From contig JADGPN010000015.1 in assembly GCA_017882465.1 (NCBI GenBank), positions 1-33,464 of the forward strand: a stretch of DNA of 33,464 bases, written 5' to 3'. Positions 4,478-24,078 of the stretch are shown piece after piece. The notes beneath the pieces are model-generated. The model saw only the letters and a program-made list of their open reading frames with translations. It made no database searches and had not been told where the DNA came from. Source of the DNA: Solirubrobacteraceae bacterium. GTDB lineage: Bacteria > Actinomycetota > Thermoleophilia > Solirubrobacterales > Solirubrobacteraceae. The position numbers were made by a program, and so were the translations under genes. Position 1 is the stretch's first letter; each line of letters starts with the position of its first letter.

Positions 4478-6469
4478 TCAGTAGTAGTCCTCGACCGTGA
4501 TCGACCAGCGCGCGGTGTCCGAGCCCGGCGCGACGGTGAGCTGAAAGATGCCCGGCCCGGTGGTGAAGACCCTGGTCTGAGAGCTGCCCTCGCTGAGGTC
4601 GAATTGGCTCGGGCTCGAACCGGCGCGGAGGTTCGAGACCTGGGCGCTGGGGCCCTGGCAGATGAAGATCAGGGTGCACGTCCCCTCGTAGCTCATGCTG
4701 TACACGATCTGCCAGCGCTGGCCACGGATGCGGAACGGCACCGAACGCCCGCCGGCGTCGCCGGCGAACGTGGTCAGCGTCCTCCAGCGCGGCGTCTCCG
4801 CGACCGAGAGCTCGACATCCGAGCGCGGCGGAACCAGCGTCCCCGCGCTCGGCGACTGTCGCGTCACCAGCCCGGCGGCGACGCCGGGCGCCGGCACCTG
4901 GATCACGCCCGTCCGCAACCCGAGTCGCTGCAGCGTGGCCCTGGCGTCGCCCGACGGGCGGCCCACGACCTGCGGCACCGTCACCGGCGCCGGCCCGGAG
5001 CTGAGCACGGCCCGCACCGCCGCGCCGTCGCTCACCCGGGCCCCGGGGCTGGGGTCCTGCGCCACGGCAAGACCGCGGCGCGCTTGGCTGTAGCGGTCGC
5101 TGAACACGGGGTGAAGGCTCAGCGGCCGGAGCTTGGCGGTGATCGCGGCTCTGCTCAGTCCCCGCAGGTCGGGCACCGTCACGCGGCCGCCGGCCGCCAC
5201 CAGGATCACCGCGGCCGCGACACCGCACACGACCATTAGAATGCCGGCGAGCGCGGCACGGCGCCGCCGTCGGGCGGACAGGTTCACGTTGCGCCGAGGC
5301 GCCATCGGCGGGGCGACACGAGTCGCGGCGGTCTTCTCGGCCGACCGCGCGAGGCATCTGGTCGCGGCCTCCTCCTCGCCGGGCCCGGACGAGCCGGGCT
5401 GCGGCGCGTGCACACCCGGTGCGGCCACGGGGGAATCCGCGGCCACCGGCGCATCGGGTGCCACGGACGCATCGGCTGCCACGGACGCATCGGCTGCCAC
5501 GGACGCATCGGCTGCCACGGACGCATCGGCAGCCACCGCTTCGCCGGCCGCGCTGAGCGTTGGCGCGAGCGTTGCCGTGGCCCCTGCCCGTGCGGAAGCT
5601 GACGCCGCTGCGGCGCTCCTCGCGCGCCCGGGGGCCGAGTTCGGCGGGCGCGTCTGCGCGCGCGCGAGGGCCTCGGCCACCGAGCCGGCGCCGGCGTACC
5701 GATCGGAGGGACTCTTGGCCAGTGAGCGCTCGACGATCGCGGCCAGTGCGCTCGGCGTGCTCGCGGGCAGCGGAGGCGGAGGATCGTGAAGATGCCGCAG
5801 GGCGAGCTCCACCGCGGAGCGCTCGCTGAACGGAGGGCGCCCGGCCAGCATCTCGTAGAGCACGATGCCGATCGCGTAGACGTCGGTGGCCGGGCTCGTG
5901 GGCTGGCCGCGAGCCTGCTCGGGCGCCATGTACCGCGGAGTGCCCACGATCGTGGCGCCGGCCCCGTCGGTGCTTCCCTCGGCGAGCCGGGCAACCCCGA
6001 AGTCGGCGACCTTGATCCGGCCGTCAGCGGAGAGCAGGACGTTGGCGGGCTTGATGTCCCGGTGCACGATGCGCTGCGCGTGCGCCGGGGCGAGCGCTCG
6101 GCACAGCTGCTCGGCGATCTCGCGCGCCTCCGAGGGCGGAATCGGGCCGCGGCGCAAACGGGCGGCGAGGCTCTCGCCGTCGACGAGCTCAGCCACGTAG
6201 TAGAGCCCTTCGTTCGCGTGGCCGACGTCGAAGATCTGCACGATCCCCGGGTCGTGGACGCGGGCCAGCAGCTGCGCCTCCCGCTCGAAGCTCCGCACCC
6301 ACACCGGATCCTCGGCCCACCATGGCTTGATCACCTTGATCGCCACCGGTCGATCAAGGCGACGGTCGCGGCCGCGATAGACGCGGCCGAACGTCCCTTC
6401 GCCGATCACGGCGTGAAGCTCGTAGCGCCCGTCGAGGGCGCGACCGGACAGATCAGGTGCGTGCGGCAT
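4478..6469 (-). CDS. Ser/Thr protein kinase with two PASTA domains
   Basis: Counting from ATG 6469 (663 residues), a Hanks-type kinase fills residues 16-275. It has the G-loop GEGTFGRVYRG, Lys45 (AIKVIK), HRDIKPAN with Asp138, DFGVARL with Asp156, and APEQ. A 150-residue low-complexity linker follows, including tandem VAADAS hexapeptides. One membrane helix lies at about 405-427. Two extracellular PASTA repeats follow (429-492 and 496-558), then an unassigned Cys-containing beta-rich domain (561-663). PASTA kinases of actinobacteria (PknB type) sense cell-wall muropeptides and phosphorylate cytoplasmic targets. In-frame ATGs at 6556 and 6514 would add 29 or 15 residues, but the chosen start gives the usual short lead into the kinase; none has a good Shine-Dalgarno site. 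Confidence 0.92.
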   Translation of the reverse strand: MPHAPDLSGRALDGRYELHAVIGEGTFGRVYRGRDRRLDRPVAIKVIKPWWAEDPVWVRSFEREAQLLARVHDPGIVQIFDVGHANEGLYYVAELVDGESLAARLRRGPIPPSEAREIAEQLCRALAPAHAQRIVHRDIKPANVLLSADGRIKVADFGVARLAEGSTDGAGATIVGTPRYMAPEQARGQPTSPATDVYAIGIVLYEMLAGRPPFSERSAVELALRHLHDPPPPLPASTPSALAAIVERSLAKSPSDRYAGAGSVAEALARAQTRPPNSAPGRARSAAAASASARAGATATLAPTLSAAGEAVAADASVAADASVAADASVAADASVAPDAPVAADSPVAAPGVHAPQPGSSGPGEEEAATRCLARSAEKTAATRVAPPMAPRRNVNLSARRRRRAALAGILMVVCGVAAAVILVAAGGRVTVPDLRGLSRAAITAKLRPLSLHPVFSDRYSQARRGLAVAQDPSPGARVSDGAAVRAVLSSGPAPVTVPQVVGRPSGDARATLQRLGLRTGVIQVPAPGVAAGLVTRQSPSAGTLVPPRSDVELSVAETPRWRTLTTFAGDAGGRSVPFRIRGQRWQIVYSMSYEGTCTLIFICQGPSAQVSNLRAGSSPSQFDLSEGSSQTRVFTTGPGIFQLTVAPGSDTARWSITVEDYY
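5451..5540. repeat. 18-bp tandem repeat, five copies, in the kinase linker
   Basis: Units start at 5451, 5469, 5487, 5505 and 5523. The middle three are identical; the first differs by one base and the last by several. On the minus strand each unit encodes six residues (VAADAS or a close variant), so copy-number change would keep the frame. Confidence 0.9.
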
Positions 6470-6557
6470 TGGAGGGATGTTTCGGGCGGTCCGGAGTCGG
6501 ATCCGATCCAACATGATCGCGAATAGGCGTCCTCTGTCTCGAAATGGCGAGAGCACG

Positions 6558-6758
6558 CGGGTCCCGGAGCTGGTGCCGATCCGCTCCGGACGGATGCTGG
6601 TCTCGCGTTCACGTTCTGCCGCGAGGTCCCGCGATTTCTACGGCCGCCAGCTGCGTGACTGGAAGGGCTCGGCGGAGATCGAGCAGAACGAGCGGGACTA
6701 CCGAGCGCTGACCGACGCGGTCGCCTCCGGGGCGATCACCGCTCAAACCGGCCTGTGA
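6558..6758 (+). pseudogene. collapsed DUF2252 gene remnant
   Basis: The open frame reads through three short blocks that each resemble a different part of DUF2252 proteins (normally about 400-450 residues). RVPELVPIRSGRMLVS (from 6558) matches the N-terminal region. DFYGRQLRDWKGSAEIE (about 6633-6683) matches the later conserved block. QNERDYRALTDAVASG (from 6684) matches the C-terminal tail. The blocks are joined directly, so more than 300 residues are missing through at least two internal deletions. The frame stays open and ends at TGA 6756-6758. The reading frame extends upstream to ATG 6477 without recognisable sequence and overlaps the kinase start region on the other strand. It is probably non-functional; matches are from memory of the family, not a search. 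Confidence 0.6.
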
Positions 6759-6828
6759 CAGACGCCTCGCTGCCGGGCGTCCGAGGTGCCTGGCGCGGCG
6801 GGCGGCGGCCCCCGGCCGCCCCAGGAGA

Positions 6829-6834
6829 TACGGT
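6829..6834 (+). promoter_or_regulatory. -10 box TACGGT, leaderless start of HipA-like kinase
   Basis: TACGGT ends six bases before ATG 6841. An AGGAG lies at 6823-6827, but its 13-base spacing is too long for efficient use. A leaderless start is preferred. Confidence 0.4.
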
Positions 6835-6840
6835 CCGCCG

Positions 6841-7608
6841 ATGGCGATTACCACCTCCCTGCGATCCGTCACAGCCACCCGCTACGTGACCCCACTGCGC
6901 GAGGGCGGTTCGCTCCCTGGGCTGGTCGAGGCCGACGACGATGGTCTCTACGTCACCAAGTTCCGTGGCGCCGGCCAGGGCCTGCGGGCGCTGGTCGCCG
7001 AGGTGATCGTCGGTGAGCTGGCGCGGCATCTGGGGCTGCTCGTACCGGAGCTGGTCACGGTCGAGATCGATCCGGCCCTCGGCGCGGCCGAGCCGGACCC
7101 GGAGATCCAGGAGCTGATCACCGCCAGTCGCGGACCCAACCTCGGCGTCGACTTCCTGCCCGCTGCGCTGCCCTACACGCCGGCGGGAGCCTGGGCTCCC
7201 GATTCGGCCCTGGCGGCGGACATCGTGTGGCTCGATGCGCTCACCACCAATGTCGACCGGACGCCGCGCAATCCGAACCTGCTGCTGTGGCACAGGCGGC
7301 TGTGGCTGATCGATCACGGCGCGGCGCTGTATCTGCAACATGGCGGCCTGGTTCCCTCCGAGCACGCCGAGCGGCCGTTTCCGCTGATCGCCGAGCACGT
7401 GTTGCTGCCTCGCGCGGGATCGATCCTGGAGGCGAACGAGCGGCTGGGGCCACGGGTGGATCGCGCGCTCCTGCGCACGGTCGCGGCGCTCGTGCCCAAG
7501 GACTGGTTCGCCGGCGACGACGCCGAGACGTACGTCGAGTACCTCGCCCGGCGCTCGAGTGCCGAGACGTTCGCAGAGGAGGCCGAGCGTGCCCGCCTCG
7601 ACGCGTAG
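6841..7608 (+). CDS. HipA family kinase
   Basis: The 255-residue protein matches the short HipA-type Ser/Thr kinase family. A GGSLPGLVEADDDGLYVTKF strand pair carries Lys40. The catalytic region is TTNVDRTPRNPN (Asp139, Asn144/146), and LIDHG (Asp158) stands in place of the DFG motif. It lacks the N-terminal subdomain of E. coli HipA, and there is no HipB-like DNA-binding antitoxin next to it. Instead its 3' end overlaps a DUF3037 gene by 20 bases, an arrangement I recall from many bacteria. Regulation of a target by phosphorylation is inferred from the fold; the substrate and any toxin role are unknown. Confidence 0.85.
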   Translation: MAITTSLRSVTATRYVTPLREGGSLPGLVEADDDGLYVTKFRGAGQGLRALVAEVIVGELARHLGLLVPELVTVEIDPALGAAEPDPEIQELITASRGPNLGVDFLPAALPYTPAGAWAPDSALAADIVWLDALTTNVDRTPRNPNLLLWHRRLWLIDHGAALYLQHGGLVPSEHAERPFPLIAEHVLLPRAGSILEANERLGPRVDRALLRTVAALVPKDWFAGDDAETYVEYLARRSSAETFAEEAERARLDA

Positions 7609-7993
7609 CCCGTTCGCCTACTCGATCGTCCGGGTCGTGCCGCGGGTCGAGCGCGGCGAGCGCTTCAACGCCGGGGTGGTTGTGTTCTGCCGCCAGCGTG
7701 ACTTCCTCGGCGCCCGAGTGGCGCTGGACGAGAAGCGGCTCGAGGCGCTGGCGCCGGGGTCGGATGCGAGCGAGGTGCGCTCGCATCTGGAGGCGGTGGT
7801 CCGGGTGGCCGACGGCGCCCCCGGCGCCGGGCCGATCGCGGCCCTGCCGCCGTCGGAGCGGTTCGGCTGGCTCGTGGCCCCATCGAGCACGATCATCCAG
7901 GCCTCCGAGGTGCACACCGGCCTGTGCGAGGACCCCGGGAAGACGCTTGAGAGCCTGTTCACCGAGCTCGTCGAGAGTCCGGCGCCGGACTGA
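7589..7993 (+). CDS. DUF3037 protein, partner of the HipA-like kinase
   Basis: The 134-residue product begins SPFAYSIVRVVPRVERGERFNAGVVVFC after a short lead. This is the diagnostic N-terminus of DUF3037 (a beta strand plus the E-x-FNAGVV motif), and it continues to FGWLVAPSSTIIQ. GTG 7589 is chosen because AGGAGG (7577-7582) sits six bases upstream; an ATG at 7559 would add ten unsupported residues. It overlaps the kinase gene by 20 bases, so the two are almost certainly translationally coupled. The function of DUF3037 is not established; the stable pairing suggests a kinase partner, substrate or antitoxin. Its 3' end overlaps the convergent glycosidase gene by 35 bases. Confidence 0.85.
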   Translation: MPASTRSPFAYSIVRVVPRVERGERFNAGVVVFCRQRDFLGARVALDEKRLEALAPGSDASEVRSHLEAVVRVADGAPGAGPIAALPPSERFGWLVAPSSTIIQASEVHTGLCEDPGKTLESLFTELVESPAPD

Positions 7994-13139: not shown

Positions 13140-13456
13140 GGCCGGTGTCCTTTCCCGATCCGGTCCGGTGGGGTTCCGGAGCCGGAACGAAGCGCGTACA
13201 ACTGTACGCTTGTGTATTGACCACTGTAGCGGGATGGCTGCGCCGGGAAATCGGGTTCGTCCAGCGGCAGCCGGCCCAGCTCCAAGAGCGCCGGCCGGCC
13301 GACGCCGCCGCGTAAACACCTCGATCACCCTCCGGAGCGTCCCGGGGTGCAGGCACCACTCGGACAAGCCAGCCGACACGGTTGCCGATCCGCCGCGCGT
13401 CGCGGGACACTACGCGGAGAGCCACACCCGCCGGTCTCCGACGAAGCGTCCAACCG
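13140..13456. other. 317-bp divergent intergenic region, OsmC / cydA
   Basis: Two overlapping palindromes sit at 13195-13214: CGTACA-AC-TGTACG (13195-13208) and ACAA-N8-TTGT within 13197-13214. TTGACC at 13217-13222 could be a -35 element toward cydA, but no good -10 follows. From about 13230 to 13456 the sequence is GC-rich with no recognised gene or site. Confidence 0.5.
13195..13214. promoter_or_regulatory. palindromic operator-like element upstream of OsmC gene
   Basis: The 18-mer at 13197-13214 (TACAACTGTACGCTTGTG) matches 16 of 18 bases of the one at 23874-23891, next to an ArsR-family remnant. Both contain ACAA-N8-TTGT. The OsmC copy also forms a perfect CGTACA/TGTACG inverted repeat, which overlaps TACAGT, a possible minus-strand -10 box (13206-13201). 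Confidence 0.45.
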
Positions 13457-14857
13457 ATGACCAACGATCTCGCCCGTTGGCAGTTCGCAACGACGAGCAT
13501 CTACCACTTTCTGTTCGTGCCGGTGACAATCGGGCTGGCGTTCCTGGTCGCGATCCTGCAGACGGCGTGGCATCGCAACGGGAACCCTGAGTACCGCCGC
13601 GTGACGCGCTTCTTCGGGACGCTCCTGCTGATCAACATTGCCGTCGGAGTCGTCACCGGGATCGTGCAGGAGTTCGAGTTCGGGATGAACTGGTCGAGCT
13701 ACTCGCGCTTCGTGGGCGATGTCTTCGGAGGTCCGCTGGCGATGGAGGGCCTGGCGGCATTCTTCCTCGAGTCGACCTTCCTCGGGCTGTGGCTGTTCGG
13801 CTGGGACAGGCTTCCCAAGCGCGTGCACCTCGCCTGCATCTGGCTGGTGGCGATCGGGGCGATGCTGTCGGCCGCGTTCATCATGGCTGCCAATTCGTGG
13901 ATGCAGCACCCGGTGGGCTACGTGCTGAACTCGAGTGGGCAGCCCGTGCTCAACGACATCGGCGCCCTGTTCACCAACCCGACGTTCACCTGGAGCTACG
14001 TCCACGTGCTGCTGGCGTCACTGATCACCGGGGCACTGGTGATGCTCTCGGTGTCGGCCTGGCATCTGCGCAAGGAGCGTGCGGTCGAGGCCTTCCGCCA
14101 CACGGCTTCGGTATCGCTGGCGGTGCTGATCCCGACCATTCTGCTGACGATGTTCGTCGGCAGCGAGCTGGGGGTGGTCGAGACCAAGTACCAGCCGATG
14201 AAGATCGCCGCCGCTGAGGGGCAATGGAACACCTGCCAGCCGTGCTCGTTCTCGCTGTTCCAGATCGGCGGCGGCAACAACGACCAGACGCCATCGCAGA
14301 TCATCGAGATTCCGCATCTGCTCTCGCTGCTGGCGACCAATTCCTGGAACGGCAAGGTGGTGGGCCTGAACCAGCTCCAGGCGCAGTACGTCAAGCAGTA
14401 CGGGCCCGGCAACTACGTGCCCGATGTGTTCATCCAGTATTGGTCGATGCGGATCATGGCGTACCTGGCCTCGCTGGTGGTGCTGCTGGCGCTGTGGGGC
14501 GGGTGGCTGATGCACCGGGGAAGCCTGGTGCGCTCGAAGTTGTTCCTGCGACTGTCGGTGTGGGCGGTGGTGACGCCCTTCCTGATGAACACTGCCGGTT
14601 GGATGCTGACCGAGAACGGCCGCCAGCCGTGGATCGTCCAGGGCCTGATGAAGACCGCCACCGCGAACTCCCCTTCGGTCACCTCGACCGACATCTGGAT
14701 CAGCCTGATCGTCTTCGTGCTGATCCATCTCGCGCTCGGCGCCGCCGACTTGTGGCTGATGCTGCGCTACTCACGTAAGGAGCTCGGCCAGGAGGACGAA
14801 CACGCCGGAGAACCCTCCGAACCGGGAGCCGCGGCCGTCCCGGTGCTGACCTATTGA
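13457..14857 (+). CDS. cydA: cytochrome bd ubiquinol oxidase subunit I
   Basis: This 466-residue CydA has the expected heme ligands: His17 in SIYHFLFVP (heme b595), His183 in YVHVLLAS and Met in YWSMRIMAY (b558). It also has GRQPW near the C-terminal helices. The quinol-binding loop is of the short form (YQPMKIAAAEGQW, Lys249 and Glu254). An unusual CxxC (Cys260, Cys263) follows immediately. With CydB it oxidises quinol and reduces O2 to water without pumping protons, and is favoured at low oxygen or under oxidative stress. ATG 13457 matches the family N-terminus (DLARWQFA); the upstream extension is unsupported. It is separated from cydB by 28 bases. Confidence 0.95.
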   Translation: MTNDLARWQFATTSIYHFLFVPVTIGLAFLVAILQTAWHRNGNPEYRRVTRFFGTLLLINIAVGVVTGIVQEFEFGMNWSSYSRFVGDVFGGPLAMEGLAAFFLESTFLGLWLFGWDRLPKRVHLACIWLVAIGAMLSAAFIMAANSWMQHPVGYVLNSSGQPVLNDIGALFTNPTFTWSYVHVLLASLITGALVMLSVSAWHLRKERAVEAFRHTASVSLAVLIPTILLTMFVGSELGVVETKYQPMKIAAAEGQWNTCQPCSFSLFQIGGGNNDQTPSQIIEIPHLLSLLATNSWNGKVVGLNQLQAQYVKQYGPGNYVPDVFIQYWSMRIMAYLASLVVLLALWGGWLMHRGSLVRSKLFLRLSVWAVVTPFLMNTAGWMLTENGRQPWIVQGLMKTATANSPSVTSTDIWISLIVFVLIHLALGAADLWLMLRYSRKELGQEDEHAGEPSEPGAAAVPVLTY

Positions 14858-14885
14858 TGGCCGCTCTCGCAAGGACCTCACTCTG

Positions 14886-15896
14886 ATGCAGCTGCACACG
14901 CTCTGGTTCATCATCATCGCGATCCTCTGGGTGGGGTTCTTCGTCCTGGAGGGATTCGACTTCGGGGTCGGCGCGCTGCACACGATCGTGGGCCGGACCG
15001 ACACCGAGCAGCGCGTCGCGCTGAATGCGATCGGCCCGTTCTGGGACGGCAACGAGGTGTGGCTGATCGTGGCCGGCGCGGGCATGTTCGCGGCCTTCCC
15101 CAACTGGTACGCGACCATGTTCTCCGCGCTCTACCTGGCCCTGCTGCTCGTGCTGGTGGCGCTGATGGCCCGCGGGGTGACGTTCGAGTTCCGGGGCAAG
15201 AGCGACGACCCGCGTTGGCGTCACGCCTGGACCTGGGGCATGACGCTGGGAAGCCTGCTGGTCCCGCTGCTGATCGGCGTCGGCCTGGGCGATCTCCTGA
15301 ACGGCCTGCCGATCAACCAGAGCCACGAGTACACAGGGAACTTCTTCGATCTGCTCACGCCCTACGGCCTGTGGACGGGTCTGACCCTGCTCGGACTGTG
15401 CCTGCTGCACGGCGCGACCTTCCTGGCCCTGAAGACGACCGACGAAGTGCGGGCCCGGGCCCATGCCGTGGCGCGGCCGCTGGGCTGGGCGGCGATCGTC
15501 CTGGTCGTCGGCTTCGTGATCTGGACGCGCGCGGTCACCGGGCACACGCAGGTGCCGGGACCGGTGGAGGTCCTGGCGGTGATCGCGGTCGTGTTCGCGG
15601 CGCGCTTGGCCGGCAGCGAGCGACACGAGGGGTGGGCGTTCACGGCCTCGGCGGTCGCGATCGCCGCCACCGTCGGCTCGATCTTCATCGACCTGTATCC
15701 CAACGTGATGGTGTCGAGCACGAAGGCGGCCTACAACCTGACCGTCAACAACGCGTCCTCAGGCTCCTACGCGCTGAAGGTGATGACGATCGTCACCGTG
15801 ATCTTCCTGCCGGTCGTGCTGGTCTATCAGGGCTGGTCGTTCCACGTCTTTCGCGCCCGGGTCAAGGCTCCACCGGCCCCGGCCGACGGCTCGTGA
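14886..15896 (+). CDS. cydB: cytochrome bd ubiquinol oxidase subunit II
   Basis: The 336-residue protein starts MQLHTLWFIIIAILWVGFFV and continues with the CydB signature LEGFDFGVGAL and GPFWDGNEVWLIVAGAGMFAAFP. It has eight or nine membrane helices. It is the structural partner of CydA and carries part of the proton path. AAGGA lies upstream of ATG 14886. The downstream cydCD genes usually needed for heme-oxidase assembly are absent here; the next gene is a convergent stress protein, so cydCD must be elsewhere if present. Confidence 0.95.
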   Translation: MQLHTLWFIIIAILWVGFFVLEGFDFGVGALHTIVGRTDTEQRVALNAIGPFWDGNEVWLIVAGAGMFAAFPNWYATMFSALYLALLLVLVALMARGVTFEFRGKSDDPRWRHAWTWGMTLGSLLVPLLIGVGLGDLLNGLPINQSHEYTGNFFDLLTPYGLWTGLTLLGLCLLHGATFLALKTTDEVRARAHAVARPLGWAAIVLVVGFVIWTRAVTGHTQVPGPVEVLAVIAVVFAARLAGSERHEGWAFTASAVAIAATVGSIFIDLYPNVMVSSTKAAYNLTVNNASSGSYALKVMTIVTVIFLPVVLVYQGWSFHVFRARVKAPPAPADGS

Positions 15897-17166: not shown

Positions 17167-17475
17167 ATGACGCCTCGCACCACCACCCGCGACCGCGGGC
17201 TCGCTCTGATCTCGCGCTTCAATCGCTGGCTGATCGCCGGCGCGGTGGCCGCGTCCGGGTTGATCTCGCTGACTGCCGCCCACGCCTTTCGCGGGCACCC
17301 CGTGAACGGAACCGCAGCGTCCTCGGGCGCCGGCGGAGCAACTGCGGCCGCGAGCAGCGCCCCCGCGCCGTCGCCGTCCGCCTCAGGTCAGGACGGCGGC
17401 AGCCTGCAGCAGCCCGCGCAGGCTCCGGCGCCGGCGCAATCCGCGCCGAGCCCGGTGGTCTCGGGGGGCTCGTGA
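17167..17475 (+). CDS. small exported or membrane-anchored Ala/Ser/Pro-rich protein
   Basis: The 102-residue protein has a basic N-terminus, one hydrophobic helix (about residues 20-40, WLIAGAVAASGLISLTAAHA) and then a low-complexity Ala/Gly/Ser/Pro/Gln tail to the end. The AHA site could be cut by signal peptidase I, or the helix may remain as an anchor. There is no lipobox and no recognisable domain. It is the first gene of a tight cluster, 25 bases before the heme protein gene, so a role at the membrane with that protein is inferred. Similar short anchored proteins precede ferric-reductase-like genes in other actinobacteria, as far as I recall. Confidence 0.7.
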   Translation: MTPRTTTRDRGLALISRFNRWLIAGAVAASGLISLTAAHAFRGHPVNGTAASSGAGGATAAASSAPAPSPSASGQDGGSLQQPAQAPAPAQSAPSPVVSGGS

Positions 17476-17500
17476 CGATGCCGAGCGACGGGGGTGACTC

Positions 17501-18616
17501 ATGATCACCGCCGCTGCCGCCTCACCCAGCGCGATGTGGTACCTCACCCGCGGGACGGGCGTGGTCGCACTCGTGCTGCTCACGCTTTCGGTGGCCCTCG
17601 GGGTCGCCAACGTGCGGCGCGTGCAGACGGCCGACATGCCGAGGTTCGTGTTCGGCGCAATTCATCGCAACGCGTCGCTGCTGGCGATCGTGTTCCTGGC
17701 GGTCCACATCGGGACCTCGCTGCTGGACGGCTTCGCGCCAATCCGGCTGCTCGACGTGATCGTGCCGTTCCGCTCGGCCTACCGGCCGTTGTGGCTCGGC
17801 TTCGGAACGCTGGCCTTCGATCTGCTGCTGGCGGTCACGATCACCAGCCTCCTGCGACGGCGGTTCGGCTATCGGGCGTGGCGAGCGACGCACTGGGCAG
17901 CCTACGCGTGCTGGCCCGTGGCTCTGTTGCACGGACTCGGAACGGGCAGTGACGCCAAGACGACCTGGATGCTGGCGATCACCGGCGTCTGCGTGATCGT
18001 GGTGATCGTCGCCGTGGTCGCCCGCGCCACCGATGGATGGCCGAACCACGCCGGTGCCCGCGCAACCGCTCTCGTCGCCTCGGCGATGGTCCCGCTGGGG
18101 CTGCTGGTGTGGCTCCCGAGCGGCCCGCTGGCCGCCGGCTGGGCCAAGCGGGCCGGCACCCCGAGCACGTTGCTCCCGAGCGCCACCGCGGCGGCCGCCG
18201 GCGGATCGGCAGCGGCGAGTGGCTCGGCATCGCCAGGTGCGAATGCGTCCCGGGTCTCGTTCACGGCGCCGGTCAGCGGAACCGTGAGCCAGGGGCAGAT
18301 CGAGGGCAACCGGTATCAGGTCCATCTCTCGCTCGCGATCGCCGGGCGGCATCTCAGCTCACTCGGGATCCGCATCATCGGTCAACCGGTCGACGGCGGC
18401 GGCGTGGCGATGACGACGAGCCGGGTGGACCTCGGCACGGGCCCCGATCCGACCCTCTACCGGGGCCGAGTAACTTCGCTCCAGGGGACGAACATCGCCG
18501 CGTCGGTGCGAGATGCGAGCGGCGCCGCGATCGCGCTGCTGGCGCGGCTGCAGATCGACACCGGGAATGGAACCGTCAGCGGCACGGTCACGGCGTCACC
18601 CGGAGGGGGTGGGTGA
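17501..18616 (+). CDS. ferric-reductase-like transmembrane bis-heme protein
   Basis: This 371-residue protein has about six N-terminal membrane helices (residues 15-215) resembling the ferric reductase-like (cytochrome b) domain. Two His pairs are spaced as expected for two b hemes across the membrane: His55 and His69 (GAIHRN...LAVHIG), and His131 and His144 (ATHWAAY...LLHGLG). There is no FAD or NAD domain. Instead a Ser/Ala-rich linker leads to an extracytoplasmic beta-rich domain (about 250-362) of unknown type. Electrons would therefore have to come from a separate cytoplasmic protein; the next gene, NuoF-like and overlapping by one base, is the natural candidate. The terminal acceptor outside the membrane is unknown. 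Confidence 0.82.
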   Translation: MITAAAASPSAMWYLTRGTGVVALVLLTLSVALGVANVRRVQTADMPRFVFGAIHRNASLLAIVFLAVHIGTSLLDGFAPIRLLDVIVPFRSAYRPLWLGFGTLAFDLLLAVTITSLLRRRFGYRAWRATHWAAYACWPVALLHGLGTGSDAKTTWMLAITGVCVIVVIVAVVARATDGWPNHAGARATALVASAMVPLGLLVWLPSGPLAAGWAKRAGTPSTLLPSATAAAAGGSAAASGSASPGANASRVSFTAPVSGTVSQGQIEGNRYQVHLSLAIAGRHLSSLGIRIIGQPVDGGGVAMTTSRVDLGTGPDPTLYRGRVTSLQGTNIAASVRDASGAAIALLARLQIDTGNGTVSGTVTASPGGGG

Positions 18617-19905
18617 TGGCGATCGCCACCGAGCAGGCGCTGCCGCGGATCTTGACCGGAATCGGCGAGGAGCCGATGGCCGAGCTCGAGTCGCATCTCG
18701 ACGTGCACGGGCCGCTTCCGGATCTCCGCAGGTGGTCCCCTGAGCAGATCATCTCCGTGGTCGAGCGGTCGGGGCTGCGCGGGCACGGAGGAGCCTCATT
18801 CCCGATGGCGACCAAGCTGCGCGCCGTGGCTTCCCGGCGCAAGCCCAAGATCCTGGTCGCCAACGGCACCGAGGGCGAGCCGGCGAGCAAGAAGGATCGC
18901 GTCCTCCTGCGCGAGCTGCCGCATCTCGTGCTGGATGGAGCCGCGATCGCGGCCCGCGCCGTCGGCGCAGGAGAGGCGGTCATCGCCGTCTCCGACGTCG
19001 ACGAGCGCAGCGCACGCAGCCTGGAGCTGGCCGTGGACGAGCGGCAGCACGCGGGGCTGCGGGGTGACCCTCAGTTTCAGCTCTTCGGAGCTCCCGAACG
19101 CTGGCTCACGGGTCAGGAATCGGCGCTCGTCAACGTGCTCAATGGCGGCCCCGGTAAACCCACCTTCGGGCCGCGGCCCTTCGAACGCGGCGTGCGACAG
19201 CGGCCGACGCTGGTGCAGAACGTGGAGACGCTCGCGCATCTGGCGCTGATCGCCCGTCACGGCGCTGATTGGTTTCGGCTGCTCGGCACCGACCGCGACC
19301 CCGGATCGGCGCTCGTCACCGTCGCCGGAGCCGTATCCGCCCCAGGGGTGTACGAGATCGAGCATGGCATGCCGCTCGAGGAGCTGCTGCAGACCGCGGA
19401 CGGACGCGAGCCGCTGTCCGCCGTGCTGCTCGGTGGGTACTTCGGGACCTGGCTTCCGGGCGCCCACATCCGCGGAGTGCGGCTTGCCGCCGAGCACCTC
19501 GCCGAGCACGGTGCGAGCCTCGGCGCCGGGGTGATCGTCGCGCTCGGGCAGTCGGCCTGCCCGGTGGCGGAGACGGCGCGGATCGCCGACTACTTCGCCG
19601 CGCAGAGCGCCGGTCAATGCGGGCCGTGCACGAACGGACTCGGTGCGGTCGCCGACACCGTCCAGCAGCTCGCCACCGGCACGGCTTCGGCCGGGGCTCG
19701 CGCGGAGCTCGCCCGCTGGGGCAAGGACATTAAGGGTCGCGGTGCCTGCCAGCATCCCGATGGCGCCGTGCGCTTCGTCTCGAGCGCCCTCAGGGTCTTC
19801 GCCGAGGATTTCGACGATCACGCCCGGCACGGCCCGTGCCCGCGCTGCTCGCACCCTCCTGTTCTCCCGGCCACCCCGATCCCGGCCTTTCCGGTCGCCC
19901 GGTAA
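18616..19905 (+). CDS. NuoF-like FMN / iron-sulfur oxidoreductase
   Basis: The 429-residue protein follows the NuoF/HoxF layout. The NADH/FMN region contains GLRGHGGASFP (about 53-63) and VANGTEGEPASKKDR (81-95). An SLBB beta-grasp part follows (TVAGAVSAPGVYEI, about 235-248). The C-terminal iron-sulfur domain carries Cys335, Cys338 and Cys378. The first Cys of the complex I N3 motif is Ala332 here (SAGQCGPC), while an extra CPRC lies at 408-411. It overlaps the heme protein stop (TGATG) and is followed three bases later by a ferredoxin. It probably moves electrons between NAD(P)H or ferredoxin and the membrane heme protein; direction and partner are inferred. Confidence 0.88.
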   Translation: MAIATEQALPRILTGIGEEPMAELESHLDVHGPLPDLRRWSPEQIISVVERSGLRGHGGASFPMATKLRAVASRRKPKILVANGTEGEPASKKDRVLLRELPHLVLDGAAIAARAVGAGEAVIAVSDVDERSARSLELAVDERQHAGLRGDPQFQLFGAPERWLTGQESALVNVLNGGPGKPTFGPRPFERGVRQRPTLVQNVETLAHLALIARHGADWFRLLGTDRDPGSALVTVAGAVSAPGVYEIEHGMPLEELLQTADGREPLSAVLLGGYFGTWLPGAHIRGVRLAAEHLAEHGASLGAGVIVALGQSACPVAETARIADYFAAQSAGQCGPCTNGLGAVADTVQQLATGTASAGARAELARWGKDIKGRGACQHPDGAVRFVSSALRVFAEDFDDHARHGPCPRCSHPPVLPATPIPAFPVAR

Positions 19906-19908
19906 GCG

Positions 19909-20109
19909 ATGCGCGTCGCCGTCGACCCGATCCAATGCGTGGCTCACGGGCTGTGCGCCGAGCTGCTCCCCGAGCGCATCCGCCTCGACGATTGGGGTTA
20001 CCCGATCCTGGACGGCGAGCCGGTGCCGCGGGAGCTGGTCGGGATCGCCCGGCGTGCCGCCGATGCGTGCCCTACATTGGCGCTGTTGCTCGAACCAGAC
20101 GGCAAGTGA
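19909..20109 (+). CDS. P450-type 3Fe-4S/4Fe-4S ferredoxin
   Basis: The 66-residue protein shows Cys10-x2-His13-x2-Cys16 (QCVAHGLC) and Cys54-Pro (DACPT). This is the single-cluster ferredoxin pattern in which the second Cys is replaced, here by His, as in many actinobacterial ferredoxins serving cytochrome P450s. The cluster is probably 3Fe-4S, or 4Fe-4S with His ligation. No P450 gene is present in the window. Its place three bases after the NuoF-like gene and overlapping the lipoprotein start (GTGA) suggests that it serves the redox cluster instead. Confidence 0.93.
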   Translation: MRVAVDPIQCVAHGLCAELLPERIRLDDWGYPILDGEPVPRELVGIARRAADACPTLALLLEPDGK

Positions 20110-21080
20110 GGCGACTGGCAGGGCCGGCCGTGGCGATGGCGGCGGCGCTGACGCTGGCGGGCTGCGGAGGGGGTGGCCAGGCAACGCCGGCCTCGGCCTC
20201 GGGACCCGCTGGCGGCGCTTCGACGAGCGCAACCGGTTCGGCCACTGTGCCGGTGCCCGCGCCGCCCCCGAAGCCGGTGCCGCCGCCGTACCCGAAGCTG
20301 CTCCCGGCCGCGCTGGGCTTGCCGCCGGCGCACTTCGTCCCGGCGGTTCTGGTGCGCGGCCAGACCGCGGTCTGGATCGCCAGCTCGGCCTCCGGGGTCG
20401 GGCTGCTGTCGTTCGACCAGGACCTCGTGAAGTTGGTGCTGCACGCGGGTTCCGTCGATCCGGGCGGCTCCGGCTGGCGCTGGGGACCGGCCGTGATCGG
20501 GTCCGAGCGCCGGCGCCTGGTGGCCGGGTTCAACGGGGGCTTCAAGTTCTCCACCGGAGCCGGCGGCTTCGTGTCCGGCCGCCGCGTCGCAGTCGCGCCC
20601 ACGGACGGCCTCGGCTCGATCGTCATCTACCAGGACGGTCACACCGACATCGGCGCCTGGCACCGTGGCCTGCCGGCCCCGGGCACGCCCGTCGTGTCCG
20701 TGCGCCAGAACCTCGGTTTGCTGATCGACCACGGCGCGCCGGCCTCCAACCTCGACTGCCTCAGCTGCTGGGGCGCGACTCTCGGCGGCGTGGTCGACCC
20801 CGCCCGCTCAGCGCTCGGCATCACGGCCCACGGGCGCCTGATCTGGGCCGGGGGCGAGCACCTGACGGTGGCGCACCTGGCCAACGCGCTGCTGGCCGCG
20901 AAGGTTCAGCGCGCCGTCCAGCTCGACATCAACCCGGCGTGGGTGGCGGGCTACCTGTATGGGCACCGCGGCGGCCACGGGCCGCTGGCGCCGGTGCCGG
21001 TGGCGCCCGGGCAGGTTGGGGTGTCGGGCTTCTTCCTGGTCCCGTACAGCCGTGACTTCTTCACGTTGATATCGCGGTGA
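20106..21080 (+). CDS. lipoprotein with phosphodiester glycosidase (NAGPA) domain
   Basis: From GTG 20106 (324 residues) the protein starts with a lipoprotein signal ending in LTLAGC, so Cys about 20 would be lipidated. A Ser/Ala/Pro linker runs to about residue 65. The rest matches the NAGPA-type phosphodiester glycosidase fold: WRWGPAVIGSERRRLVAGFNGGFKF, SVRQNLGLLIDHG, and LDINPAWVAGYLY. The family removes N-acetylglucosamine-1-phosphodiester in mammals; bacterial members are linked to exopolysaccharide but mostly untested. The GTG overlaps the ferredoxin stop, so co-translation is likely. Why an extracellular glycosidase-like protein ends an electron-transfer cluster is unclear. Confidence 0.85.
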   Translation: MRRLAGPAVAMAAALTLAGCGGGGQATPASASGPAGGASTSATGSATVPVPAPPPKPVPPPYPKLLPAALGLPPAHFVPAVLVRGQTAVWIASSASGVGLLSFDQDLVKLVLHAGSVDPGGSGWRWGPAVIGSERRRLVAGFNGGFKFSTGAGGFVSGRRVAVAPTDGLGSIVIYQDGHTDIGAWHRGLPAPGTPVVSVRQNLGLLIDHGAPASNLDCLSCWGATLGGVVDPARSALGITAHGRLIWAGGEHLTVAHLANALLAAKVQRAVQLDINPAWVAGYLYGHRGGHGPLAPVPVAPGQVGVSGFFLVPYSRDFFTLISR

Positions 21081-22449: not shown

Positions 22450-23811
22450 TCAGCCGGCCCCGTGGCAGCGCTTCCACTTTCGCCCGCTCCCGCACGGGCA
22501 GGGATCGTTGCGCCCGCGGGCGGCGTCGTCTGAGGCGTACGCGCGCATCAGCTCGGCCGGGGCCCGATCGGCCGCCAGCAGGGCCGCCATCGCGCGCATC
22601 GGTGCCTCGACGTGATGGAAGAAGAGCTTGTATCCGGGGCAGAGGTAATGCTGCCCCGGCTCGCCGTAGGGCGAGCTGGCGAAGCGGTCCTTGGGGCAGC
22701 CCCCGTGGCAGGCGAAGCGCACATCGCAGTCCAGGCAGTACTGGGTGAGCGTGTCGCGCTTGTCGGTTCCGAACGCCACCTGCTTCGAGGATGCGATCAG
22801 CTCCTGCATCGGGGTCTGGGTGATGTTGCCGAGCAGGTAGTCCGGCTCGACGAAGTGATCGCAGCAGTACAGGTCGCCGTTGTGCTCGAGCGCCAGCTGC
22901 AGGCCGCACGTCTCGGCGTGCACGCACATACCTCCGGGCTCGCCCACCCAGTTCGCCAGGGCGGTGTCGAACATCTGCACGTAGACCGTGCCGATGTCAC
23001 GGCGCACCCAGTCCTCGAACACGTCGATCAGGAAGCGGCCGTACTGCTCGGCGCCGATCGAGCGCTTGGTCACGAGGTTTCCGTGCTGCGTGTACAGCGG
23101 GCGCCCCTCGACGTGCCCGCCCCAGCCGGCGTCCGCGATCTCGATCGCCTCCGCCGTCGTCCGCTCGATGATGGGGATGAACTGGATGAAGGTGGCGCCG
23201 AGCTCGTCACGCAGAAAGCGGTAGACCCGGGTGCCATGATCGCCGTTGGCGGCGTGCAGGGTGGTCAGCACGTTCCACTCGACGTCGTGGTCCTTGAGGT
23301 AATTCAGACCGCGGATCACGCGATCGAAGGTGGGCTTGCCGCCCTTGCTGACCCGGTAGGTGTCATGGATCTCCCGCGGTCCGTCGATCGAGATGCCGAC
23401 CAGGAAGTCGTTCTGCTTCAAGAACGCCCCCCATTCGTCGTCGAGCAGAGTCCCGTTCGTCTGCAGCGTGTTCAGGATGCGCTGATCCGGACGGGCGTAC
23501 TGCCGCTGCAGCTCGATCGAGCGCCGGAAGAAGTCCAGGCCCATGATCGTGGGCTCGCCGCCCTGCCAGGCGACGATGACCTCAGGGGCCCGCTGATGGG
23601 CCTCGAGCAGCTGGCGGATGTAGTTCTCCTGCAGCTCCTGCGCCATCCGGAAGCGGCTGCCCGGATAGAGCATCTCTTTGGAGAGGAAGAAGCAGTACTC
23701 GCAGTCGAGGTTGCAGACCGCGCCCGTAGGCTTGGCCATCAGGTGAAACGCGAGCGGCGCCCCGGGCAGCGTCAGCACCGGGCCCGCTTCGAGGTCGGCA
23801 CTGATCCCCAT
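22450..23811 (-). CDS. anaerobic sulfatase-maturase-like radical SAM/SPASM protein with SEC-C tail
   Basis: From ATG 23811 (453 residues) the radical SAM cluster motif appears in VCNLDCEYCFF (C-x3-C-x2-C). SAM-binding GGEPT and a SPASM-type C-terminal region (CVHAETCGLQLALEHNGDLYCCDHF, then YCLDCDVRFACHGGCPKDR) bind two further 4Fe-4S clusters. This matches the anSME group that turns Cys or Ser into formylglycine in sulfatases. The last 20 residues are a SEC-C zinc motif (NDPCPCGSGRKWKRC). No sulfatase lies nearby, so the target is unknown and another peptide modification is possible. A longer frame upstream to 24027 lies antisense to the ArsR remnant and is rejected. Confidence 0.9.
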   Translation of the reverse strand: MGISADLEAGPVLTLPGAPLAFHLMAKPTGAVCNLDCEYCFFLSKEMLYPGSRFRMAQELQENYIRQLLEAHQRAPEVIVAWQGGEPTIMGLDFFRRSIELQRQYARPDQRILNTLQTNGTLLDDEWGAFLKQNDFLVGISIDGPREIHDTYRVSKGGKPTFDRVIRGLNYLKDHDVEWNVLTTLHAANGDHGTRVYRFLRDELGATFIQFIPIIERTTAEAIEIADAGWGGHVEGRPLYTQHGNLVTKRSIGAEQYGRFLIDVFEDWVRRDIGTVYVQMFDTALANWVGEPGGMCVHAETCGLQLALEHNGDLYCCDHFVEPDYLLGNITQTPMQELIASSKQVAFGTDKRDTLTQYCLDCDVRFACHGGCPKDRFASSPYGEPGQHYLCPGYKLFFHHVEAPMRAMAALLAADRAPAELMRAYASDDAARGRNDPCPCGSGRKWKRCHGAG

Positions 23812-23873
23812 CGGATCATGGTACCCGCGAGAATCTCCGTAGGCCTCACCCGGAGCGGATGAGACACAATCTA

Positions 23874-23891
23874 TACAACTGTGTGCTTGTG
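23874..23891. promoter_or_regulatory. ACAA-N8-TTGT element beside ArsR remnant
   Basis: TACAACTGTGTGCTTGTG matches the OsmC upstream element (13197-13214) at 16 of 18 bases. It lies just upstream of the ArsR fragment on the plus strand and about 60 bp upstream of the radical SAM start on the minus strand. On the minus strand TATAGA (23875-23870) partly overlaps it and may be a -10 box. Confidence 0.45.
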
Positions 23892-23907
23892 ATAGCCTTG
23901 AAGTCGT

Positions 23908-24012
23908 GCCCGCGTCCGCTACGCGATCGCCGACGAAGGTGTGTTCGAGCTCTGCGAACAGGTCTGCGGCGGTGTCCGTCGTCAGCTCGGCCAGCTCGAG
24001 GCACTGCTCCAG
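23908..24012 (+). pseudogene. C-terminal fragment of an ArsR-family repressor
   Basis: The plus strand reads ARVRYAIADEGVFELCEQVC, then GGVRRQLGQLEALL. This is the wing end and C-terminal dimerisation helix of ArsR/SmtB-type regulators with a CxxxC pair. The frame has an in-frame TGA at 23899-23901 and no helix-turn-helix upstream, so the DNA-binding half is gone. Beyond about 24012 the frame continues as the antisense of the ROK gene. It is a remnant, placed directly downstream of an operator-like palindrome that may have been its own site. Confidence 0.6.
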
Positions 24013-24078
24013 CCGGTCCCCCCGCACGTAGCGTGCGCCGCGGCCGGGCGACTCGACGCCGGAGGTGCACGCCGCGGA

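Follow-up and report, generated by a model that had tools for sequence, protein, structure and literature searches.

The stretch of DNA analyzed here, 33,464 nucleotides from a soil bacterium of the Solirubrobacteraceae and hereafter called the window, carries five plus-strand genes, A to E (positions 17167-21080), which probably form a transmembrane electron relay, running from NADH through flavin mononucleotide (FMN), iron-sulfur and heme to a flavin on A, a disordered tether that would be flavinylated at its C-terminus. We likewise predict, with fair confidence, a new class of ApbE substrates in Actinobacteria: single-span proteins with a disordered tail, no folded flavin domain and a flavinylated C-terminal Ser, which would provide a swinging flavin arm for MsrQ-like relays and would be the main partners of ApbE in this family. 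The window corresponds to contig C112 in a genome of 5.5 Mb and 94.95% completeness; the closest named relatives are mostly titled Solirubrobacterales metagenome-assembled genomes (MAGs).

A tail protein linked to ApbE

A preliminary description of this DNA, made from its letters, had counted gene A but had not described it; A proves to be the most informative of the five. Neither Pfam nor NCBIfam yields a match to it at E <= 1, and its tail ends VVSGGS. When A-like open reading frames (ORFs) were picked by eye in the window and in loci L048-L087 (41 sources), all 35 of them ended in Ser, 31 as [ST][GQ][GA]S and four as TRxS. We then recognized A without its tail, by means of a hidden Markov model (HMM) built from about 50 N-terminal residues of 16 A proteins and run at E <= 1e-3 against 80 loci (L111-L190), which were retained from among 405 confirmed candidates of a named-genome scan for B and are the basis of all counts out of 80. 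These named loci overlap in part with the G loci used below (the same contigs occur in both), so that their counts are not additive; related genomes are not independent, and all counts are given without phylogenetic correction.

The model found 70 ORFs in 68 of the 80 loci. Ser or Thr is the last residue in 69/70, and 67/70 end as [ST]G[GASQ][ST], a pattern found at the end of only 15 of the 7,953 other ORFs of the same loci, several of these 15 being further A or B tails (L132, L141, L142, L175, L190). The 16 seed sequences were chosen after their tails were known and account for 11 of the 70 matches; with the seeds removed, the proportions are 58/59 and 57/59, respectively. The three exceptions to the pattern end VTRVS, VTSGS, and SGGSLP. 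Leaving out the SGGSLP case (n = 69), the last residue is Ser in 69/69, position -3 is Gly in 67, and position -4 is Ser in 65 and Thr in four. The linker varies freely, whereas these last positions are nearly invariant. The tails have a median length of 84 residues, 79% of them Pro, Ala, Ser, Thr, Gly, or Gln. Net positive charge is greater before the hydrophobic segment than after it in 55/70 A proteins, equal in eight and less in seven, so the tail is predicted to lie outside. A second small membrane gene with an acidic end (DD, SDD, DE) precedes the tail gene in L196, L197, L200, L201, L203, L206, L234, L241, and L250, and could belong to the system as a further component.

The gene lying between A and B in the relatives of the window encodes ApbE (PF02424, 137.9 bits in one member); the best match of another member among solved FMN transferase structures is 1vrm (E 2e-19). 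The order A-ApbE-B occurs in 56/80 named loci and A directly before B in 14/80. A review (PMC12052999), in the sections that deal with it, gives the ApbE motif as D-x-x-[S/T]-G-A-[S/T] and places FMN on its final residue; the motif functions at a protein terminus, including the C-terminus, and replacing its Asp with Ala has only a minor effect. The A tails agree with the end of this motif, with Gly usual for Ala and Asp absent. The window copy ends SGGS (G for A), a few relatives end SGAS or SGAT, and the L175 tail, VTSGAT, shows the canonical four motif residues. Among cultured relatives, Paraconexibacter antarcticus (L153) has the tail VVTGGS and Catenulispora pinisilvae (L132) the tail VTSGGS. 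This likeness, together with the conserved C-terminus and the linkage to ApbE, leads us to read A as a C-terminally flavinylated tether.

The linkage also holds in a census centered on ApbE rather than on B, which was designed to avoid selection on B and covered 146 genomes of the family, 117 of which have an ApbE gene. Under the fixed rule applied, a tail gene passed if its product combined a hydrophobic segment with a tail 25-200 residues long, at least 65% of it P/A/S/T/G/Q/V/E, and the C-terminus [ST]xxS, and if its stop codon lay within -420 to +25 of the ApbE match. The first batch consisted of 40 ApbE genes hand-picked from the 51st place downwards of the score-sorted matches listed, with upstream sequences not previously viewed; the second comprised the other 50 new entries from the 51st place to the end of the matches listed and 10 from the top 17, entries fetched earlier being excluded. 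The rule was passed by 30/40 in the first batch and by 31/50 and 8/10 in the second, i.e., by 69/100 ApbE genes among the matches listed. As a control, 390 other gene starts from the window and the G loci were scored; a segment plus tail was seen in 25, and none passed (0/390). The genome of the window itself has three ApbE genes, each behind a tail gene, with the ends VVSGGS (C566), PVTRTS (C527), and SVTTQQS (C716). At the last of these (L211, G000:C716:26000-37000) there is no B nearby and a reductase-like gene occupies the opposite strand, possibly another client of the flavin tail.

Among the census failures, four had less than 200 bases of upstream sequence (L258, L261, L270, L274), and five have the motif just before the end: L229 and L264 end SGSSGG, and L279, L280, and L285, with TRxS one to four residues earlier, end TRTSGAI, TRASRTPG, and TRVSG. 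Two more are near-misses, L314 (VVSGGS, below the hydropathy threshold) and L308 (SDWS, below thresholds), and two, L220 and L235, resemble FMN_bind genes by eye; the remaining failures show nothing of the tail-gene kind. SRWS ends occur in 2/69 passes (L306, L307), which together with L308 may represent a different tail group.

Across the phylum, an even sample of 198 genomes yielded B of this kind in 26 at E <= 1e-25. We retrieved 20 of these 26 loci, 19 of them from outside the family: a similar tail ORF is present in 18/20 (by eye), 14 ending in Ser and four in Ser-His or Ser-His-Pro, and ApbE is beside B in 18, whereas a NuoF-like gene is present in five, so the NuoF-like partner is less widespread.

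Several observations weigh against this reading of A and of the cluster. The Asp of the ApbE motif is absent in 70/70 A proteins and Gly replaces its Ala in most of them, other tails end TRTS, TTSQS, SRWS, or similar, and 31/100 census ApbE genes fail the rule. No ApbE gene lies beside the window copy, the three ApbE matches of its genome all being off contig C112, and no signal peptide was seen in the ApbEs of the loci (27 full-length N-termini and one truncated, by eye, without a predictor). As the tail is predicted to be outside, FMN would then have to be added before export. Finally, the gene order C-D-E is rare (7/80 named loci).

Some of these features could also be explained if the conserved C-terminus of A were a docking or sorting tail, for B or for ApbE, while ApbE modified another protein; tails without the canonical Asp and mostly without Ala, many ending TRTS, TTSQS, or similar, would fit such a role. 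We nevertheless regard this explanation as rather unlikely, because the [ST]-x-x-S end, with the presumed acceptor residue last, is tied to ApbE itself (69/100 against 0/390), including 10/18 census loci without B in the short stretch examined and locus C716 of the genome of the window. Moreover, three known substrate families, FMN_bind, NQR2_RnfD_RnfE, and DUF2271, have no match in that genome, these being the families searched among ApbE substrates. FMN_bind as a hidden partner of the window cluster was discarded for the same lack of a match.

The heme, NuoF-like, and ferredoxin genes

The features of the cluster are listed in Table 1. The preliminary description had placed its last four genes as overlapping or 0-3 bases apart, which the ORFs and junctions bear out: B and C overlap by one base (TGATG), C and D are separated by 3 bp, and D and E overlap by four bases (GTGA), following a gap of 25 bp between A and B. 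A promoter and terminator scan of the window found nothing and is uninformative, so that the case for a single A-E transcript consists of the gene overlaps.

Table 1 Features of the A-E cluster in the window.
Feature	Position	Strand	Description
Gene A	17167..17475	+	102-aa single-span protein: basic N-terminus, hydrophobic segment at residues 22-40, 62-residue Ala/Pro/Ser-rich tail
C-terminal VVSGGS of A	17455..17472	+	Putative ApbE flavinylation site; FMN would be on the last Ser
Gene B	17501..18616	+	Six-helix ferric-reductase/MsrQ-like bis-heme protein (His55, 69, 131, 144); PF01794; C-terminal domain probably extracytoplasmic
C-terminal 8-stranded beta domain of B (residues 250-367)	18248..18601	+	From structure model and alignment
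Gene C	18616..19905	+	NuoF-like NAD(P)H dehydrogenase: FMN, SLBB, and iron-sulfur domains; 3 of 4 N3 cysteines
Gene D	19909..20109	+	Three-Cys ferredoxin (CxxHxxC...CP)
Gene E	20106..21080	+	NAGPA-fold lipoprotein; lipobox LAGC; 'LDIN' variant motif

The domain assignments proposed earlier for B, C, and D also stand. B scores 35.7 bits against PF01794 (Ferric_reduct, cut-off 28) without matching any flavin or NAD family, has six predicted long helices, and retains the four heme His residues invariantly in the 14 and in the 22 sequences aligned, in agreement with a bis-heme membrane protein lacking a flavin domain; the best fold match of its model is STEAP2 (E 2.3e-3). The C-terminal approximately 120 residues are modeled as a beta domain (block predicted local distance difference test score, pLDDT, 84-95; predicted template modeling score, pTM, of the whole model 0.56), which is absent from shorter B relatives in the alignment. 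We considered this domain as an FMN carrier and rejected it: no flavinylation-like motif was seen, it has no Pfam match, the B model retrieves nothing from the PDB below E 0.001, and shorter B proteins do without the domain. By our own reading, the basic loops of B are 1-2 and 3-4, so its C-terminus should be outside. In L142, two tandem B paralogs (5980-6993 and 7115-7873) carry at this end fused A-like tails ending ATGGS and ATGAS, and adjoin a third B copy with the beta domain instead of a tail. In L063 (6993-9149), B is a 718-aa ORF and no separate C is labeled, which may be either a B-C fusion or a frameshift.

C matches PF01512, PF10589 (68.1 bits, cut-off 23.5), and PF10531 above cut-off, and aligns with Nqo1 of Thermus (2fug chain 1) at E 1.6e-53. 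It retains the glycine-rich FMN loop of NuoF and the NADH-side E.EP..KD motif. The first of the four N3 cysteines, however, is Ala in the window protein and is never Cys in 31/31 aligned C proteins, and its absence is also seen in the comparison with Thermus Nqo1, which indicates that the iron-sulfur centre of C is altered. D matches PF13459, carries Cys10, 16, and 54 in the P450-type (3Fe-4S) ferredoxin motif CxxHxxC...CP, and has as its best solved relative a ferredoxin-P450 143 fusion (8amq, E 1.3e-6).

The cluster type, with its putative new electron carrier, recurs widely in Actinobacteria. At E <= 0.001, 107/146 family genomes contain B, a count that includes paralogs of other types, and the 80 named loci bear the titles Solirubrobacterales, Thermoleophilia, Acidimicrobiia, Catenulispora, Actinocrinis, Actinospica, Streptosporangiaceae, and Frankiaceae, as well as Chloroflexi and Acidobacteria MAGs. 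The genes labeled in these loci are B (79), ApbE (67), NuoF-like (65), ferredoxin (64), DUF4405 (40), and NAGPA-like (14). Gene order was taken as the succession of HMM labels on six-frame ORFs of the plus strand, unlabeled genes in between being ignored. On this basis B-C-D follow each other on one strand in 60/80 loci, A-ApbE-B-C-D in 46/80, and A-ApbE-B-C-D-E in 5/80. The B-C-D arrangement is not a product of chance, and since B, C, and D occur together across actinobacterial orders, the lack of conservation beyond close relatives that the preliminary description had named as grounds for dropping its idea was not observed. Two-component genes often accompany the cluster in the named loci, where their HMMs were run, with a response regulator in 51/80 and a histidine kinase in 48/80.

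A proposed relay ending in a mobile flavin

Building on the computed genes, domains, heme His residues, gene order, A C-termini, and A-ApbE linkage, we propose the following scheme. C would oxidize NAD(P)H with its FMN, electrons would pass from the iron-sulfur centre of C to ferredoxin D and on to the heme pair of B, by which they would cross the membrane. On the outer side A would accept them, as a membrane-anchored disordered tether whose last Ser we infer to be flavinylated by an ApbE, and the mobile flavin arm would take electrons from B to an envelope or extracellular acceptor. For the window copy, one of the three ApbEs encoded elsewhere in the genome would have to act in trans; that of C566 would be the simplest candidate, because the A protein of C566 itself shares the VVSGGS end. 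Protein E might be an envelope partner with a NAGPA fold. The transmembrane route from NAD(P)H through FMN, iron-sulfur, and heme had been suggested before, and the association of B, C, and D agrees with it; what had been missed is the outer carrier, which is probably A.

The relay could in principle run inward, an envelope dehydrogenase reaction reducing the tail flavin, with electrons then passing through B and D to C to yield NADH or reduced ferredoxin. NuoF-like proteins operate in either direction in hydrogenases and formate dehydrogenases, the structural relatives of C include NuoF-like proteins of such two-way enzymes, and DprE1-like oxidase genes are found nearby in a few loci. No common electron donor gene is seen among the labeled neighbors (the neighbors were not annotated in full), and we consider an inward relay quite unlikely. 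The tail flavin might, instead, be cytoplasmic and shuttle electrons between C/D and B, as the apparently cytoplasmic ApbEs of the loci (N-termini by eye) would allow. This is very unlikely in view of the positive-inside rule, followed in 55/70 A proteins, and of the C-terminus of B, which bears the tail in L142 and should be outside according to the basic loops. A relay directed outward to the tail of A is our preferred interpretation.

The cluster had been presented as having no characterized counterpart, which holds only in part, since MsrQ-like flavinylated clusters were listed in 2021. The passages of Meheust et al. 2021 (PMC8238504) on these systems describe them as broadly conserved in Actinobacteria, 31 having a NuoF-like protein, and as typically including an FMN_bind gene. 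They share with the present cluster the bis-heme membrane protein (PF01794), the NuoF-like protein (PF10589) and, as regards the relatives of the window, an ApbE gene in the cluster. They differ in that an FMN_bind protein is typical there, whereas here the protein with the C-terminal tail seems to substitute for it and ferredoxin D is added; the window, in addition, has gene E and neither a local ApbE nor an FMN_bind gene.

The ApbE substrates described in the relevant parts of PMC8238504 and of Huang et al. 2024 (PMC11334425) have their flavin placed either on a domain with a fold or within a subunit in the membrane. The latter authors report, in those parts, flavinylated Flavodoxin_4 and FMN_red proteins, with the sites of FMN_red proteins on an unstructured C-terminal extension. 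A would resemble FMN_red substrates in having its site on a disordered C-terminal stretch (predicted in A), but their flavin is near a folded FMN_red domain, whereas A has no recognized domain and its putative site is the very last residue. For the engineered Flavin-tag, the cited review (PMC12052999) indicates, in its section on the tag, that a C-terminal ApbE motif of only seven residues suffices for FMN attachment; A would be a natural counterpart. We found no paper in the open-licence literature searched on an ApbE substrate with a C-terminal tail site or on one without a folded domain. The substrate class of ApbE is therefore probably what is new, the MsrQ-like flavinylated cluster type being already known. 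As to C, it has the NADH/FMN and SLBB regions in common with NuoF/Nqo1 of complex I (2fug chain 1), from which it differs by the replaced N3 cysteine and by its location, which is not in a complex I operon.

If true, a natural C-terminal flavin tail would widen the range of ApbE substrates, account for ApbE genes where a genome lacks the usual substrate domains, and provide a rule for genome mining, namely a transmembrane segment plus tail plus [ST]xxS-COOH next to ApbE. It would also open the function of the actinobacterial MsrQ-like/NuoF-like clusters to study, and a link to cell-wall arabinose synthesis, suggested by DprE1/DprE2-like genes next to a few of these clusters, could be tested.

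Gene E and neighboring genes

E had been described as a lipoprotein with a NAGPA domain. The lipobox (LAGC, read by eye) and the predicted NAGPA fold agree with this, but the Pfam match to NAGPA (PF09992) reaches only 15.1 bits, below the cut-off of 25. The predicted fold (mean pLDDT 74.5) retrieves NAGPA structures first, with 6pky_B at E 3.7e-11, prob 1.00, and a template modeling score (TM-score) of 0.43-0.48; for the DUF2233 structure 3ohg the TM-score is 0.52-0.58. With such TM-scores the resemblance to NAGPA is clear but loose. E shares with both structures the FN.GF motif and shows 'LDIN..W' in place of LDGGGS. The lipoprotein type is represented by the window E and its L150 counterpart (66% identity), and a longer type, which has a hydrophobic segment at the N-terminus, by the NAGPA-like proteins of L157, L162, L173, L175, L179, and L185; D-I-N is invariant in both types in the aligned set.

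The lipoprotein had also been called an unexpected partner, but NAGPA-like genes recur in 14/80 named B loci and E is thus not peculiar to the window, nor does anything mark it as an electron acceptor. Only three NAGPA-like genes are present in the 5.5 Mb of its own genome, so that their occurrence in 14/80 neighborhoods is more than expected by chance, and with some of these loci titled Acidimicrobiaceae, E as a lineage-specific accident was discarded. The NAGPA-like gene is the next labeled gene after D in 7/80 loci, within a few bases or overlapping in six and about 0.9 kb further on in L157. That E is itself a redox partner or the terminal acceptor, as its overlap with D and the NAGPA-like genes in 14/80 loci might suggest, is extremely improbable given its glycosidase-type fold without a visible cofactor motif, the absence from many homologs of its CxxC pair, which makes a weak case for a redox protein, and the lack of a NAGPA-like gene in 66/80 loci within the stretch examined.

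The NAGPA-like gene adjoins UbiA, DprE1-like, and DprE2-like genes in L124, L137, L169, L173, and L179, and the UbiA/DprE/NAGPA-like set is found beside heme/ApbE clusters in several lineages and in varied orientation, also in L080 and L081 (the L080 stretch ends before the position of DprE2). NCBIfam, applied to representatives from three of the first five loci and from L080, gave decaprenyl-phosphate phosphoribosyltransferase at 294 and 254 bits (cut-off 207), DprE1 at 408 and 447 bits, below the cut-off of 500, and DprE2 at 254 and 228 bits (cut-off 250). In the genome of the window, C643 has a DprE1-like gene (46% identity) and, at a distance of about 1.7 kb, a NAGPA paralog. We rejected the idea that the closer homologs of E are part of an arabinose locus, as UbiA is present in 1/20 of their loci and DprE in 0/20, several stretches ending at contig ends.

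NAGPA-type enzymes cleave sugar-1-phosphodiesters, of which polyprenyl-phospho-arabinose is one; a connection of E with this compound is a lead only. The shared neighbors hint at a tie between envelope electron transfer and arabinose-lipid synthesis. Far less supported than the new substrate class is the idea that the relay serves extracytoplasmic sugar redox chemistry, namely arabinose epimerization of the DprE1/DprE2 type, with NAGPA-like genes forming the link between the two in some loci.

Scans of the window for tRNA genes and Rfam families gave no matches. Cytochrome bd oxidase subunits I and II are encoded at 13382-15896 (+), ending about 1.3 kb upstream of the cluster, and on its other side, at 22450-24027 (-), lies a gene for a radical S-adenosylmethionine protein of the anaerobic sulfatase-maturase type (TIGR03942, 481 bits, cut-off 349).

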